In this document: positions 8,717-37,085 of the stretch, one piece after another
Layout: each line of letters starts with the position of its first letter
Position numbering within the stretch: position 1 is the stretch's first letter
Assembly (NCBI GenBank): GCA_950059285.1
Contig: CATLTV010000009.1
Location: 1 to 54,597 of the forward strand
Direction: 5' to 3'
DNA length: 54,597 nt
DNA from: an uncultured Pseudomonadota bacterium
GTDB taxonomy: Bacteria; Myxococcota_A; Bradymonadia; Bradymonadales; Bradymonadaceae
Position numbers and translations under genes: made by a program
The notes under the pieces: generated by a model
The model's input: only the letters and a program-made list of their open reading frames with translations
Database searches by the model: none
What the model was told of the DNA's origin: nothing

Positions 8717-9871
8717 TCACTTTGCCTCTTCTTTTGCCTCGGCAGGCTTGTCGCCCTCTTTGGGAGCCTCTTGCTTGCCCTCTTCTTTTACCTCAGCACC
8801 CTCTTTTTTCTCGTCCTTCTTCTCATCGCCCTTCTTGGCCTCTTCCTGCTTCTTCTCCAGGCGGTCAATCGCAAAGCGCGCATATGCCTTGAGCTGATCC
8901 TCGGGGAAGCTCGCCTTGACCTTGAAGTCACCACGCTTGAACTCACTCTCCACAACCTTGAAGAACTCGGTCTTTGTGGGCGCGCCAAGCTTCACGTCCT
9001 CGGGTACATTGGCGATCTTACGTGTCGCTGCATCAATTTTTGCCGAGAGCAAGGGCTCTGCCGCCGCAAGCGCCTCTTCTGGTGTGCCGCGACGATCAAT
9101 GCTGCCTTCGGCGACAAAGAAGATGACCTTGTTCTCCGCATCATACAGCTCGTCCTTGACCAGCGCGGGCTTGAGATCCTGCTCGAATCGCTGCGCAATC
9201 TCCTCGACCTCAACCTCGTCACGAAGCGCCGCCGCACGGGCAGTTGCCTCTTTCCTGATCTTTGGCAGCGCATAAAGATTCCCCACCTTGTCAAACACAT
9301 CGGCGGCTTCCTTCTTTTTCCCCTCGGCCACAAGCTTCTCGCCACGCTCCTGGAGGAAGTCCACAAGCATCGTGTTCAGGCGAGGGTTCTTGGTGTCATA
9401 CTTGAGCCCCTTGCTGACCACTTCCTCAAACTTCTGAGGGTTGGCATTCTTGTCCATGGAGTCAGCCCAGTCCCTGTACAGGTCGGGGAAGTAACTCTCT
9501 TCCATCAGCTGGCGAATTCTCTTTTGCTCGATCTTCTCCTTGTCATTGGAGGGCTTCTCACTTTCAAGCTTGCTCCACAACGCGAGCAGACGCTCCTCGG
9601 CTTCCTTGTATTGCTTCTTCTTCACATCTACCTGTGAGCGCAGGATAATCGCCTGTGAGCTGTTGGGCTCTTTTTTCAGCGCTTCCTCAAGTACGCTCTC
9701 GGCGCGATCCACATTACCCGCCTGAAGTGCACTGTCAGCCTCGATCATCAGATCCTTGGCAGACTTCTCACACCCCGTCACAAACAGCGCACCACTCAGT
9801 ACGCACCCTGCGACCAGCGCACGCATCATCATTGTCTTGGAACGTACAGCAGACCTCATTGCCTTCATCAT
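8717..9871 (-). CDS. TPR-containing lipoprotein, 384 aa
   Basis: The start at 9871 follows AAGGAGATAA. The N-terminus is basic and hydrophobic and ends in the lipobox FVTGC (Cys34), so the protein should be lipid-anchored. Residues ~40-120 contain TPR-like helix pairs (ALQAGNVDRAESVLEEALKK, then YKEAEERLLALW), with more helical repeats further on. The C-terminal ~45 residues are a low-complexity Lys/Glu/Ala stretch (repeats such as KKDEKKEGAEVKEEG). A scaffold or assembly role in the envelope is likely; the partner is unknown. Confidence 0.8.
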   Translation of the reverse strand: MMKAMRSAVRSKTMMMRALVAGCVLSGALFVTGCEKSAKDLMIEADSALQAGNVDRAESVLEEALKKEPNSSQAIILRSQVDVKKKQYKEAEERLLALWSKLESEKPSNDKEKIEQKRIRQLMEESYFPDLYRDWADSMDKNANPQKFEEVVSKGLKYDTKNPRLNTMLVDFLQERGEKLVAEGKKKEAADVFDKVGNLYALPKIRKEATARAAALRDEVEVEEIAQRFEQDLKPALVKDELYDAENKVIFFVAEGSIDRRGTPEEALAAAEPLLSAKIDAATRKIANVPEDVKLGAPTKTEFFKVVESEFKRGDFKVKASFPEDQLKAYARFAIDRLEKKQEEAKKGDEKKDEKKEGAEVKEEGKQEAPKEGDKPAEAKEEAK

Positions 9872-12244: not shown

Positions 12245-12296
12245 AAGATGCAGGCGCGAGTGATTTTAAAATCACTCGCGCCTGCATCTTTTTTTC
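12245..12296 (+). terminator. ffh terminator: 46-bp perfect palindrome plus T-tract
   Basis: Arms 12245-12267 and 12268-12290 are perfect 23-bp complements with no loop, followed by a T-rich run to 12296. It starts 26 bases after the ffh stop. Confidence 0.95.
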
Positions 12297-17634: not shown

Positions 17635-17690
17635 AAAGAGCGAAGGCGTGGCGCCTCATGTACACATGAGGCGCCACGCCTTCGCTCTTT
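17635..17690. terminator. 56-nt near-perfect palindrome between rpsI and the methyltransferase gene
   Basis: Arms 17635-17661 and 17664-17690 are perfect 27-bp complements with a 2-nt loop. It follows rpsI on the minus strand and precedes the methyltransferase start. There is no long T-tract beyond the stem on the minus strand (only the stem's own CTCTTT), so it is not a textbook terminator. Confidence 0.8.
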
Positions 17691-17743: not shown

Positions 17744-18139
17744 TTAACGCTTGGAGAACTGGAAGCGAGCACGAGCGCCGCGCTGACCGTACTTCTTACG
17801 TTCTTTAGCACGAGCATCACGAGTAAGGAAGCCGCCAGCCTTGAGAGGAGCGCGGAGACCCTGGTCAACGAGGAGCAAAGCGCGGGCGATACCGAGGCGC
17901 ACAGCACCTGCCTGACCGCTCTTGCCGCCACCCTTGACGTTGCAAAGGATGTCGAACTTGTCGCCCATTTCGGTCAACACGAGAGGTTGACGAACGAGCA
18001 TCATAAGGACGTCGCGCTGAAAGTACTCATCAGCGTTCTTCTTGTTAACAGTAATCTGACCGGAGCCAGGGCGCAGGAAGACGCGTGCAGATGCTGTCTT
18101 ACGACGACCGATGGCGTGGTATTGTTCAATGTTTGCCAT
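17744..18139 (-). CDS. rpsI: 30S ribosomal protein S9 (uS9)
   Basis: This 131-residue protein shows the uS9 signature: [19 protein letters not shown] at the N-terminus, [32 protein letters not shown], and the C-terminal [17 protein letters not shown] ending in ARFQFSKR. The KR tail reaches the P-site tRNA on the 30S subunit. The gene follows rplM by 71 bases, the conserved bacterial rplM-rpsI order. Confidence 0.98.
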
Positions 18140-22184: not shown

Positions 22185-22242
22185 AAAAGAAAAAGAGGGG
22201 CGACCATTTGGCTAGCCAAATGGTCGCCCCTCTTTTTCTTTT
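22185..22242. terminator. 58-bp perfect palindrome, bidirectional terminator
   Basis: Arms 22185-22213 and 22214-22242 are perfect 29-bp complements with zero loop, flanked by A-rich sequence on one side and a T-rich run on the other. The GGCGACCATTTG core recurs in the palindrome at 24280-24350. Confidence 0.93.
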
Positions 22243-24274: not shown

Positions 24275-24279
24275 GACTC

Positions 24280-24350
24280 AAAAAGATAAGACCGAAAGAG
24301 GGCGACCATTTGCGCAGCAAATGGTCGCCCTCTTTCGGTCTTATCTTTTT
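24280..24350. terminator. 71-nt palindrome, bidirectional terminator
   Basis: Arms 24280-24313 and 24317-24350 are perfect 34-bp complements with a 3-nt loop. A-runs and T-runs close both ends, so it can terminate both convergent genes. Its core GGGCGACCATTTG/CAAATGGTCGCCC is shared with 22185-22242. Confidence 0.95.
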
Positions 24351-24414
24351 GAAACTGGTTCCTGGAGCGTAATAAAGAAGGATCTGTTGGGAAAAGCTCC
24401 TTCTCCATCACGCT

Positions 24415-26710: not shown

Positions 26711-26763
26711 AAGAGGAGAGGTCAACCTGTTCTTCATTGAAGAACAGGTTGACCTCTCCTCTT
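26711..26763. terminator. 53-nt palindrome after the TPR gene
   Basis: Arms 26711-26736 and 26738-26763 are perfect 26-bp complements with a 1-nt loop. It abuts the stop codon of the 26766-27221 gene on the minus strand. No T-tract follows on that strand. Confidence 0.8.
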
Positions 26764-27794: not shown

Positions 27795-27853
27795 CTGAAA
27801 GTTGCGTGGAGGAGTCGTTTTTTTAGAAAACGACTCCTCCACGCAACTTTCAG
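27795..27853. repeat. 59-nt orphan palindrome between divergent genes
   Basis: Arms 27795-27821 and 27827-27853 are perfect 27-bp complements with a 5-nt loop TTTAG. It lies 91 bases upstream of the minus gene (start 27704) and 110 bases upstream of the plus gene (start 27963), so no annotated gene ends here. T/A runs sit in the loop rather than outside the stem. Confidence 0.9.
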
Positions 27854-33633: not shown

Positions 33634-33699
33634 AAAGGCAACGCTCAGGGGGGCGGCGAGCTGATATATCAGCTCGCCGCCCCCCTGAGCGTTGCCTTT
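33634..33699. terminator. 66-bp perfect palindrome after eno
   Basis: Arms 33634-33666 and 33667-33699 are perfect 33-bp complements with zero loop; four C/G pairs extend the stem beyond a 1-nt bulge. It begins 38 bases after the enolase stop on the minus strand. No T-tract follows. Confidence 0.85.
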
Positions 33700-33737: not shown

Positions 33738-35093
<1,356 letters not shown>

Positions 35094-35158: not shown

Positions 35159-35797
35159 CTATTCTTCTTCCAGACGCGAGACGGTCGGCGAGGATGCGGC
35201 TGCTGACAAGTCAGCAGCCGCATCCTCGCCGACCGTCTCGCGTCTGGTGATCACATACATGCTCGCGTTGACAAAAGCTTGCTTTGGTCGACGCGCATAA
35301 AGGGCAAGTTGTTCTTCTGGATCGGTGGAGTCGACCATCAATACAAATTGATAAGGCACATTCATCACCGAAGCATGAAGACGCACAGCAAGCTCGTTCA
35401 ATTTGGCCTTTGAGCCAGGCACGCTTAAAAACAACCCAAGCGCGTTGTCGCGCGATGCCTCAAGAGGAGGCCCTACCTGTCGCAAGAGCGACTGCACGGA
35501 CTCAAGCACATGAGCATGTAAGGTGGATTCTTCAACTTCTTCGGGATCGAAATAAAGGAGGTCCTGAAACCCTGTAATTTCGACAAATGGTCGTGATGGA
35601 CCAAGACCATATGAGCCCGTGATCGTGGCAATGGCGCACTGTTGCTGATCGTAGATTGAGATATCACGCAGAGCAGCGATCACATCAGCCCAGAAAAAGA
35701 ACCTCATGGGATACGTAGCATCACCAAGGAGGCTCACTTGAATTGTCTCCGAGGAGGTGGGCACCTCACGAAAGAGCGCAAACTGGGAAGAAGACAT
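35159..35797 (-). CDS. Hypothetical protein, 212 aa, 3' end encoded by a palindrome
   Basis: ATG 35797 (MSSSQFALFREVPTS) lies 4 bases after the stop of the upstream gene, so the two are translationally close; a longer frame to 35854 overlaps that gene. The body is soluble with mixed alpha/beta segments (VSLLGDATYPMRFFFWADVI, ATITGSYGLGPSRPFVEITG, LAVRLHASVMNVPYQFVLMV). The last ~30 residues (ETVGEDAAADLSAAASS and on) are encoded inside a 78-bp palindrome and look like low-complexity extension, not native domain. No family is recognised. Confidence 0.6.
   Translation of the reverse strand: MSSSQFALFREVPTSSETIQVSLLGDATYPMRFFFWADVIAALRDISIYDQQQCAIATITGSYGLGPSRPFVEITGFQDLLYFDPEEVEESTLHAHVLESVQSLLRQVGPPLEASRDNALGLFLSVPGSKAKLNELAVRLHASVMNVPYQFVLMVDSTDPEEQLALYARRPKQAFVNASMYVITRRETVGEDAAADLSAAASSPTVSRLEEE
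35170..35247. repeat. 78-nt palindrome inside the 3' end of a CDS
   Basis: Arms 35170-35207 and 35210-35247 are perfect 38-bp complements with a 2-nt loop. It lies wholly inside the coding region 35159-35797 and supplies its last ~26 codons before LEEE and the stop. No T-tract is present. Confidence 0.95.
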
Positions 35798-35801
35798 GAA
35801 G

Positions 35802-37085
35802 TTACTCGACGCGAGGATGAATCGCGAGCCATGCAGCCTGAGAAATGCGATCAAGAGGGGTAATCTTTTCAGATTTCAGTGCGACCTCCCAGGCCACAGA
35901 CTTCTCAACGCTATCCTTTGAGGATTCTTCATCCTTGAGGTTGTAAATGTAGCTCACCACATACACATCATCAGAGTCGTCCTTGGGCTTGGATGACCAC
36001 TTACACTGACGACTTGCTTTGCATTCCTTGAACGCCTCGGAGTTGGATGCCTGAGCTGTCAAAAGCCATTCCAGAGCCTCAACAATCTCACGCTGACCAA
36101 ACATGGTTGCCATCGATTTACACTGATCGCGAAGTTTACGTGATGCGCACGCCTTTTTGGCTCCACCTGTCCAGTTCTTTCCTGGCTTGGCAGATGGATC
36201 GTAGGATTCAGGCATAATATCTGCGCGCTCGGTCTTGGCGAAGTCCTCACCAATACGCATCACATCCGCAGCCTGGAGGTTTGAAGCTTTGAGGGCCTTG
36301 GCCTGATAATCAAACTCAAACTCGGCGTAGGTTGGTTCCCCTGCCTCGACCCACTGGAAGTAGGCTTTAAAGAGCGTGCCGCGATCGTGCGCGATGGTCC
36401 AACCCAGGATAGAGTCACCCTCGGCGGATTCTTCGCGGTTTTCAAAGTGCATCAACAGCGCGCCGCTAAGCGTCAAACCAGATTCGAAGCGGTGACTTGC
36501 AAGCGCAGATACAACCTGTTTGTGCTTGTCATAGTAGTCATCCTCCACGGACTTGGTGGGGTCCATGGCCACACGTGCGAGCACGTTCTTGGGGACCACC
36601 TTGGCCTGCTTGAGGTCGACGAGCCAGGATGGGCCCACAATAATGTGCGCATCCTTGAACGCATAGGTCACAAGGTAGAACCACTCACCGTAATCGGTCT
36701 CGCCCCACCACTGCACTTGCCAGCCAAGCTTTTCTCGATTGCCAAGTTTGAGCGTGTTTTTGATGAAGTCCTCTCGCTCAAGCAACGTTGCCACAGGCAC
36801 ACGCTCGGTGGGCACGTCCTCATCCTTTTTCTTGGCCTTCTTTTTATCATCTTCAGCAGCCTGAACAGGCACAACGGCCTTCTTGACCTTGACCAGTTCA
36901 ACGGCAGCCTGCCCCTGGATCGAGTAAGGGTTCACCTTCTCCTTGGGGGAGTTATCAATGATGACCTCTTTGACCACAGTGGTTTGTGTGCTCCCACCAA
37001 ACGATACAAAGATAAAGATCCCCAAACCAACGATTGAGAGCACAATAATTGCGAGAACAATCTGAAGAATTTGCCTGGTTTCCAT
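35802..37085 (-). CDS. Membrane-anchored protein with long external region, 427 aa
   Basis: An N-terminal hydrophobic helix (IVLAIIVLSIVGLGIFIFV) without lipobox or cleavage site anchors the protein. A Lys/Asp-rich spacer (DDKKKAKKKDEDVP) follows. The large outer part has no recognised domain, though LGWQVQWWGETDYGEWFYLV and GDSILGWTIAHDRGTLFKAY are internally similar. Cysteines near the end (KKACASRKLRDQCKS and FKECKASRQCKWSS) could form disulfides. The next gene starts 4 bases after its stop, so the two are an operon. Confidence 0.7.
   Translation of the reverse strand: METRQILQIVLAIIVLSIVGLGIFIFVSFGGSTQTTVVKEVIIDNSPKEKVNPYSIQGQAAVELVKVKKAVVPVQAAEDDKKKAKKKDEDVPTERVPVATLLEREDFIKNTLKLGNREKLGWQVQWWGETDYGEWFYLVTYAFKDAHIIVGPSWLVDLKQAKVVPKNVLARVAMDPTKSVEDDYYDKHKQVVSALASHRFESGLTLSGALLMHFENREESAEGDSILGWTIAHDRGTLFKAYFQWVEAGEPTYAEFEFDYQAKALKASNLQAADVMRIGEDFAKTERADIMPESYDPSAKPGKNWTGGAKKACASRKLRDQCKSMATMFGQREIVEALEWLLTAQASNSEAFKECKASRQCKWSSKPKDDSDDVYVVSYIYNLKDEESSKDSVEKSVAWEVALKSEKITPLDRISQAAWLAIHPRVE

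Follow-up and report, generated by a model that had tools for sequence, protein, structure and literature searches.

The genome from which the window (the whole 54,597-nucleotide stretch of DNA analysed here) was taken carries about 155 long perfect palindromes per Mb. The 78-nt palindrome at 35170-35247, which lies in the 3' end of a protein-coding gene, appears to belong to this genome-wide class, whose members seem to be mostly intrinsic bidirectional terminators. The probable explanation of the class is that one arm serves as the template for correcting the other (fold-back template switching), and that this happens with unusual strength in the lineage. Long perfect palindromes are generally regarded as unstable in bacteria and as targets of cleavage by SbcCD. 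In a genome that has kept SbcCD together with roughly a thousand palindromes whose arms measure 18-41 bp, the stability of palindromes, template switching in replication and the origin of terminators can be tested directly. Such a genome would also harbour a mutational process so strong that it overwrites common residues of FolP, and would offer a route by which non-coding hairpins are turned into protein tails. A search of the open-licence PMC literature gave no report of such a genome-wide palindrome class in bacteria.

The palindrome in the tail of the gene beside enolase

A sequence-only reading of the window had described a 78-nt perfect palindrome (38-bp arms, 2-nt loop), the longest of the window, inside the 3' end of a gene. 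This was confirmed at 35170-35247, where the 38-nt arms are 100% complementary and the loop is AA (Table 1). The palindrome lies wholly within the minus-strand open reading frame 35159-35797, in which it provides codons 184-210 of 213, followed by Glu-Glu-stop, and it ends 11 nt from the end of the gene. The same reading had it encode an Ala/Ser tail of about 26 residues; the tail is indeed encoded by these codons, but its richness in Ala and Ser is only partial.

Relatives of the host protein are present in 24 of 38 related genomes. Conservation stops at about residue 183, the last conserved columns being F175, N177 and V183, which bears out the view that the protein upstream of the palindrome is native. 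Past the conserved part the ortholog tails are about 3 to 60 residues long and each is different. An alignment of orthologs had been proposed as a check on whether the tail is absent from them. This holds in part: the tail made by the palindrome occurs in no relative, but orthologs also have tails, each with one of its own. The same tail as conserved protein in other genera, which was named as the observation that would speak against the reading, was not seen in the ortholog alignment, and the all-different ortholog tails rule it out. Residues 189-209 of the host protein nearly all have pLDDT below 50 and are thus predicted to be disordered. Since the tail is variable and predicted to be disordered, a palindrome could be tolerated there.

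The structural model of the host protein (mean pLDDT 79) matched MPN/JAB1 domains such as Rpn11 and CSN5 in Foldseek, with E-values of 1e-6 to 1e-5 and TM scores of about 0.4-0.5, so that the protein resembles an MPN (JAB1) domain in which no metal-binding HxH motif is evident. Searches of Pfam and of PDB sequences with the host protein gave nothing useful. The next gene downstream, which we take from its sequence to be enolase, starts within 261 nt downstream of the host gene in 16 of the 19 loci examined, and one of the three exceptions ends at a contig edge.

Two hints, which point partly in different ways, bear on the history of the palindrome. Its central 38 nt match the palindromes L003, L072, L024 and L041 with E-values of 2.6e-8, 9e-8, 1.3e-5 and 4.7e-5 respectively, the best value from 60 shuffled palindromes being 0.002, and this kinship favours a shared core. 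The first half of its translation, RRETVGEDAAA, resembles the tail of the ortholog in genome G013, AREQPGEESAA (6/13 residues the same; p = 0.005 by shuffling; the best match among 10 orthologs), which suggests that the 5' arm is perhaps the original one, from which the 3' arm was copied in inverted form. Both hints, and also the architecture of other copies with a shared core and unique outer arms, agree with a core that came in or was converted and whose outer arms grew out of the sequence around it. The kinship of the core fits arrival from elsewhere as well as growth in place. No closer relative was found in the collections searched, a scan of genome contigs with the host protein included, and so no before/after pair was seen for 35170-35247. 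It had also been suggested that the palindrome was probably inserted into the gene. This is possible for the core because of its kinship with other palindromes, but neither a target duplication nor a Y1 transposase was found, and the flanks of 35170-35247 showed no common target-site duplication. The interpretation given in that reading is thus partly supported: the tail is lineage-specific, insertion is unproven and perfection of the palindrome in place is the better general explanation.

The RNA of the palindrome region folds with -93.5 kcal/mol (z = -12). The palindrome is not called a terminator because it lacks a T-tract and lies inside the gene. A rho-independent terminator has a T-tract behind its G+C-rich hairpin and stands just past a stop codon; here T takes 3 of 8 positions, and the palindrome precedes the stop codon, unlike most of the class. 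The terminator scan, which by design requires a T-rich tail, did not call it.

Table 1. Positions in the window of the host gene, its neighbours and the palindromes
Feature	Coordinates	Strand	Basis
Host gene, 212 aa, MPN (JAB1/Mov34)-like predicted fold, without Pfam match, conserved enolase neighbour	35159..35797	-	
Presumed enolase, next gene downstream	33738..35027	-	translation
Upstream gene, 427 aa, without Pfam match	35802..37085	-	
78-nt perfect palindrome, 38-bp arms, 2-nt loop	35170..35247	.	palindrome scan and RNA fold
5' arm in the reading direction of the gene; codes RRETVGEDAAAD; possibly the native half	35210..35247	-	similarity to G013 tail (suggestive)
Palindrome loop, AA on the + strand	35208..35209	.	
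3' arm in the reading direction of the gene; codes SAAASSPTVSRL; possibly the inverted copy	35170..35207	-	
Central 38 nt of the palindrome, kin to the L003 (beside groEL), L072, L024 and L041 palindromes	35190..35227	.	
33-bp-arm palindrome of the usual kind, 38 nt past the enolase stop, terminator position	33634..33699	.	
36-bp-arm palindrome, same class as 33634..33699	24278..24352	.	
29-bp-arm palindrome, same class as 33634..33699	22185..22242	.	
27-bp-arm palindrome, same class as 33634..33699	17635..17690	.	
23-bp-arm palindrome, same class as 33634..33699	12245..12290	.	
26-bp-arm palindrome, gene end 2-3 nt away	26711..26763	.	
27-bp-arm palindrome within a divergent gap	27795..27853	.	

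Size, position and composition of the palindrome class

The source genome, which belongs to an uncultured bacterium that is probably of Bradymonadales type, is a draft of 6.65 Mb in 441 contigs (95% complete), and 1,254,597 of its bases were sampled (the window and 60 stretches). In this sample 229 perfect palindromes with arms of at least 14 were found, 194 with arms of at least 18 and 113 with arms of at least 30, the longest arm being 41. By extrapolation the whole genome probably holds about 1,030 with arms of at least 18. The window alone has 10 with arms of at least 16, including 35170-35247. A chance origin is excluded by two controls: 454,597 own bases contained 88 palindromes with arms of at least 14 against one in three order-3 Markov copies combined, and coding sequence contained 15 against none in two synonymous-codon shuffles. 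It should be noted here that genes were called by our own hexamer script and not by a standard gene finder; among these 15 the start or frame is probably miscalled in L028, L030, L077, L081 and L084, and the trusted long-arm cases are that of the window and those in L027, L035, L068, L076, L078 and L083.

Relatives have far fewer. In 728,025 bases from 23 relatives, a sample picked in part for a frequent core pattern, there were 13 palindromes with arms of at least 14 and three with arms of at least 18, with a maximum of 21, and no called gene contained one. E. coli K-12, sampled in two 50-kb stretches, had a single arm of 14 and nothing longer. The core pattern AGGGGCG N8-30 CGCCCCT, which like its longer version detects only the core kinds of the source genome itself, matched 160 times in the source genome (reversed control 0), and the 56 remaining genomes of the taxonomic class had 0-30 matches. 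The longer version matched 20 times in the source genome, and none of the other 376 genomes of the phylum that were examined had more than one match. Three genomes, G028, G045 and G056, had 30, 23 and 24 core-pattern matches (control 0, 0 and 7), and their sampled stretches had arms of at most 14.

The palindromes occupy particular places between genes. Over the 1,254,597 bases a palindrome was present in 71 of the 104 gaps between convergent genes, in 112 of the 448 between tandem genes and in 11 of the 134 between divergent genes, and in an 854-kb sample 121 of 161 lay from 20 nt before to 50 nt after a gene's 3' end. For 33 of 66 convergent palindromes the two stop codons are each within 20 nt of the palindrome edges, so that the gap is taken up by the palindrome. 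Counted from the centre, the left arm is G-rich at 9-15 nt and A-rich at 16 to 32, and thus each strand reads a G+C stem and then a T-rich stretch. A T-tract (at least 6 of 8) was seen in 117 of 178 gene-end palindromes, 10 of 36 other intergenic ones and 3 of 15 in genes, the background being 7%; gene-end palindromes have a median arm of 30. Judged by their composition and position, most members of the class look like over-long bidirectional intrinsic terminators, with the A- and T-runs drawn into perfect arms.

Some variation within the genome may be recorded here. Two A+T-rich palindromes in L030 (8782-8855 and 17425-17484) are made of ATATTTTGATATC-like units and form a sub-type apart from the G-rich class. 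Where the loop is 3 nt long, it often reads GAA or GCA with a closing C-G pair (or the complementary arrangement), which is the pattern of very stable DNA mini-hairpins.

Origin of the palindromes

At least two palindromes lie within conserved genes, and these two are informative about how such sequences arise. In folP (L083 17395-18264; PF00809, E = 1e-87) a 48-nt palindrome at 17881-17928 lies over the conserved GADIINDVSA motif. All 48 of its positions are symmetric in the source genome as compared to 12-28 of 48 in 21 aligned relatives, a range that is itself a modest excess over chance, and there is no inserted base (the search matched 23 relatives, of which L138 and L139 were left out). 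The common F before D is replaced by K in the source genome. The palindrome at 9070-9107 of trkH (L035 8971-10422, PF02386) is symmetric at 38/38 positions against 10-18 in the scored sequences, and the source genome again has no inserted bases; this alignment comprises nine relatives and one paralog of the genome's own, with five loci left out and one of the nine relatives (L168, a 36-nt stretch) unscored. Neither palindrome has kin among the other palindromes of the genome. Since the relatives align without insertion and yet are not palindromic, both palindromes arose by rewriting of the sequence in place. Arms made perfect by substitution in place with no net insertion, which mark quasipalindrome correction, are thus found in both genes. 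Being in the middle of genes, the two palindromes cannot be terminators.

Perfection in the class is nearly all-or-none, with 194 perfect palindromes against 14 with one internal mismatch. Outside the arms 2.6 of 10 positions pair, as in random sequence, and G-T has no preference at the first mismatch, where it accounts, in either orientation, for 15 of 88 cases, the chance level. When related palindromes from different parts of the genome are compared, the substitutions and the indels of 1-2 nt that set them apart are mirrored between the arms (L032/L152, L143/L147 and three L079 copies are examples), that is, they differ by the paired changes and paired indels of quasipalindrome correction. 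The all-or-none perfection, the palindromes within genes and the mirrored differences point to a process at the DNA level. All-or-none perfection, origin in place and mirrored differences are also what template switching should leave behind when a nascent strand is folded (PMC7202029, PMC8794818).

The arms are probably perfected and lengthened in the DNA itself. The nascent strand would fold back on an existing imperfect hairpin, take its own 5' arm as template in place of the true one and switch back afterwards, as in quasipalindrome correction. In the host gene the event would have struck the 3' end, where the C-terminal tail can vary freely. The tail would now consist of a core that is kin to other palindromes and of arms copied from local sequence, with the frame open through 26 codons. 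The template-switch step and the identity of the native arm are what we infer from these patterns, as is the view that 35170-35247 is a by-product rather than a working terminator.

Loss of particular genes was considered as a possible cause. Rho, SbcC, SbcD and ExoVII (XseA) are all present in the source genome, and loss of any of them was therefore rejected. ExoI is missing throughout the taxonomic class, and an absence of this extent cannot single out the source genome. With SbcC, SbcD and ExoVII present and ExoI absent class-wide, no repair defect explains a pattern seen in the source genome only.

Correction in place does not by itself explain dispersal, because 83 of the 229 palindromes have a relative elsewhere in the genome at E <1e-5, 70 of them in one group, and the flanks of the examined pairs are mostly unrelated. 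This kinship is what a family of mobile palindromic elements, copied to new sites and with one copy inserted in the tail of the host gene, would produce; the matches of the central 38 nt of 35170-35247 to four palindromes (E 2.6e-8 to 4.7e-5) agree with it, and the insert would be 78 nt, or 26 whole codons. We nevertheless regard such a family as unlikely. All 229 palindrome sequences are distinct, and those of folP and trkH have neither kin nor inserted bases. Target-site duplications of lengths 2-9 across 194 palindromes were near chance (length 3: 6/194 against 3.3 expected), and insertion of the transposon type was rejected since none was clearly above it. The Y1 (REP-associated) transposase PF01797 had no match in the source genome, which is 95% complete so that absence is not certain, yet it is present in 12 of 18 relatives searched. 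REP elements are associated with RAYT transposases, and a REP/RAYT system was set aside because no Y1 match was obtained in the source genome. Pairs of DNA uptake signals were dismissed as well, as the top palindrome words occur outside hairpins at about the chance rate, an A-rich word reaching up to about 3 times that rate.

Several related sets were noted (L079 13763, 16277 and 16916; L035 3911/L072 17521; L043 10904/L070 17743), and several of them have reverse-complement loops, which could reflect either loop inversion or inverted placement. In one L079 pair the loops are the reverse complement of each other and the flanks are unrelated, hence the two are indistinguishable there.

Selection on RNA could also keep a hairpin perfect if it served at the gene end as an RNase III site, an attenuator or a terminator and so insulated enolase. 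The class does occupy terminator positions and carry T-tracts, 35170-35247 stands between the body of the host gene and enolase, and its region folds with z = -12. However, selection of this kind should tolerate G-U pairs and bulges and need not extend the arms beyond the T-tract, a role as terminator is impossible for the folP and trkH palindromes because they are mid-gene, and 35170-35247 has no T-tract (3/8) and went uncalled by a scan that needs a T-rich tail by design. It is therefore very unlikely as the explanation. Fold-back chimeras are known from amplification and the genome is a draft of 441 contigs, so the palindromes might be sequence folded back on itself during whole-genome amplification or assembly. 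Against this, unique and correctly framed sequence lies on both sides of the palindrome, palindrome positions track gene ends and terminator composition, folP and trkH keep their exact length, and even the longest arm, 41 bp, falls short of the usual word length in assembly. An artefact of the draft genome is thus highly improbable.

Template switching on a folded nascent strand is the reading that we favour. A more far-reaching form of it can be imagined, in which an active arm-conversion process of a new type makes nearly every chromosomal hairpin perfect and longer. The palindromes would then be DNA parasites that repair themselves and that spread and last with no transposase, with terminators as their main reservoir, and an occasional spill into genes (the host gene, folP, trkH) would rewrite proteins. 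We put this forward tentatively and consider it doubtful.

Comparison with known systems

Quasipalindrome correction is known in the form of mutational hotspots at single sites, whereas in the source genome long perfect palindromes number about 155 per Mb and their arms reach 41 bp. Its mechanism, correction by template switching, is described as established in E. coli and is also found in phage T4 and yeast (PMC7202029). The likeness lies in the conversion of an imperfect inverted repeat to a perfect one and in the ability to rewrite coding sequence (PMC7202029). Template switching has also been described, from RNA genes and ancestral reconstruction, as creating and maintaining RNA hairpins (PMC8794818). 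In that work, as in our reading, copying at the DNA level explains paired changes and new perfect stems; that work makes no mention of terminators (0 occurrences; PMC8794818).

In their sequence the palindromes resemble bidirectional rho-independent terminators, which have a G+C-rich hairpin with an A-run before and a T-run after it (PMC1852404). The TransTermHP survey gives Neisseria the longest stems among the six species shown, with a mode of 11 (PMC1852404); by contrast, the gene-end arms of the source genome have a median of 30, and the A- and T-runs are inside the perfect arms. Like REP elements, the palindromes are dispersed and lie outside genes for the most part; REPs as described are 20-40 bp long with shared tagged ends (PMC3733652), whereas the copies of the source genome all differ and no Y1 transposase was found. 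A further parallel is provided by the mitochondrial genes of nematomorphs, which contain coding palindromes of up to 284 bp with binary perfection, for which the authors propose a repeat-conversion that removes mismatches (PMC6649704). Long perfect inverted repeats in protein genes, perfect in an all-or-none manner, are common to both; those of nematomorphs are mitochondrial and in coding genes (PMC6649704), while those of the source genome are on a bacterial chromosome and mainly at gene ends.
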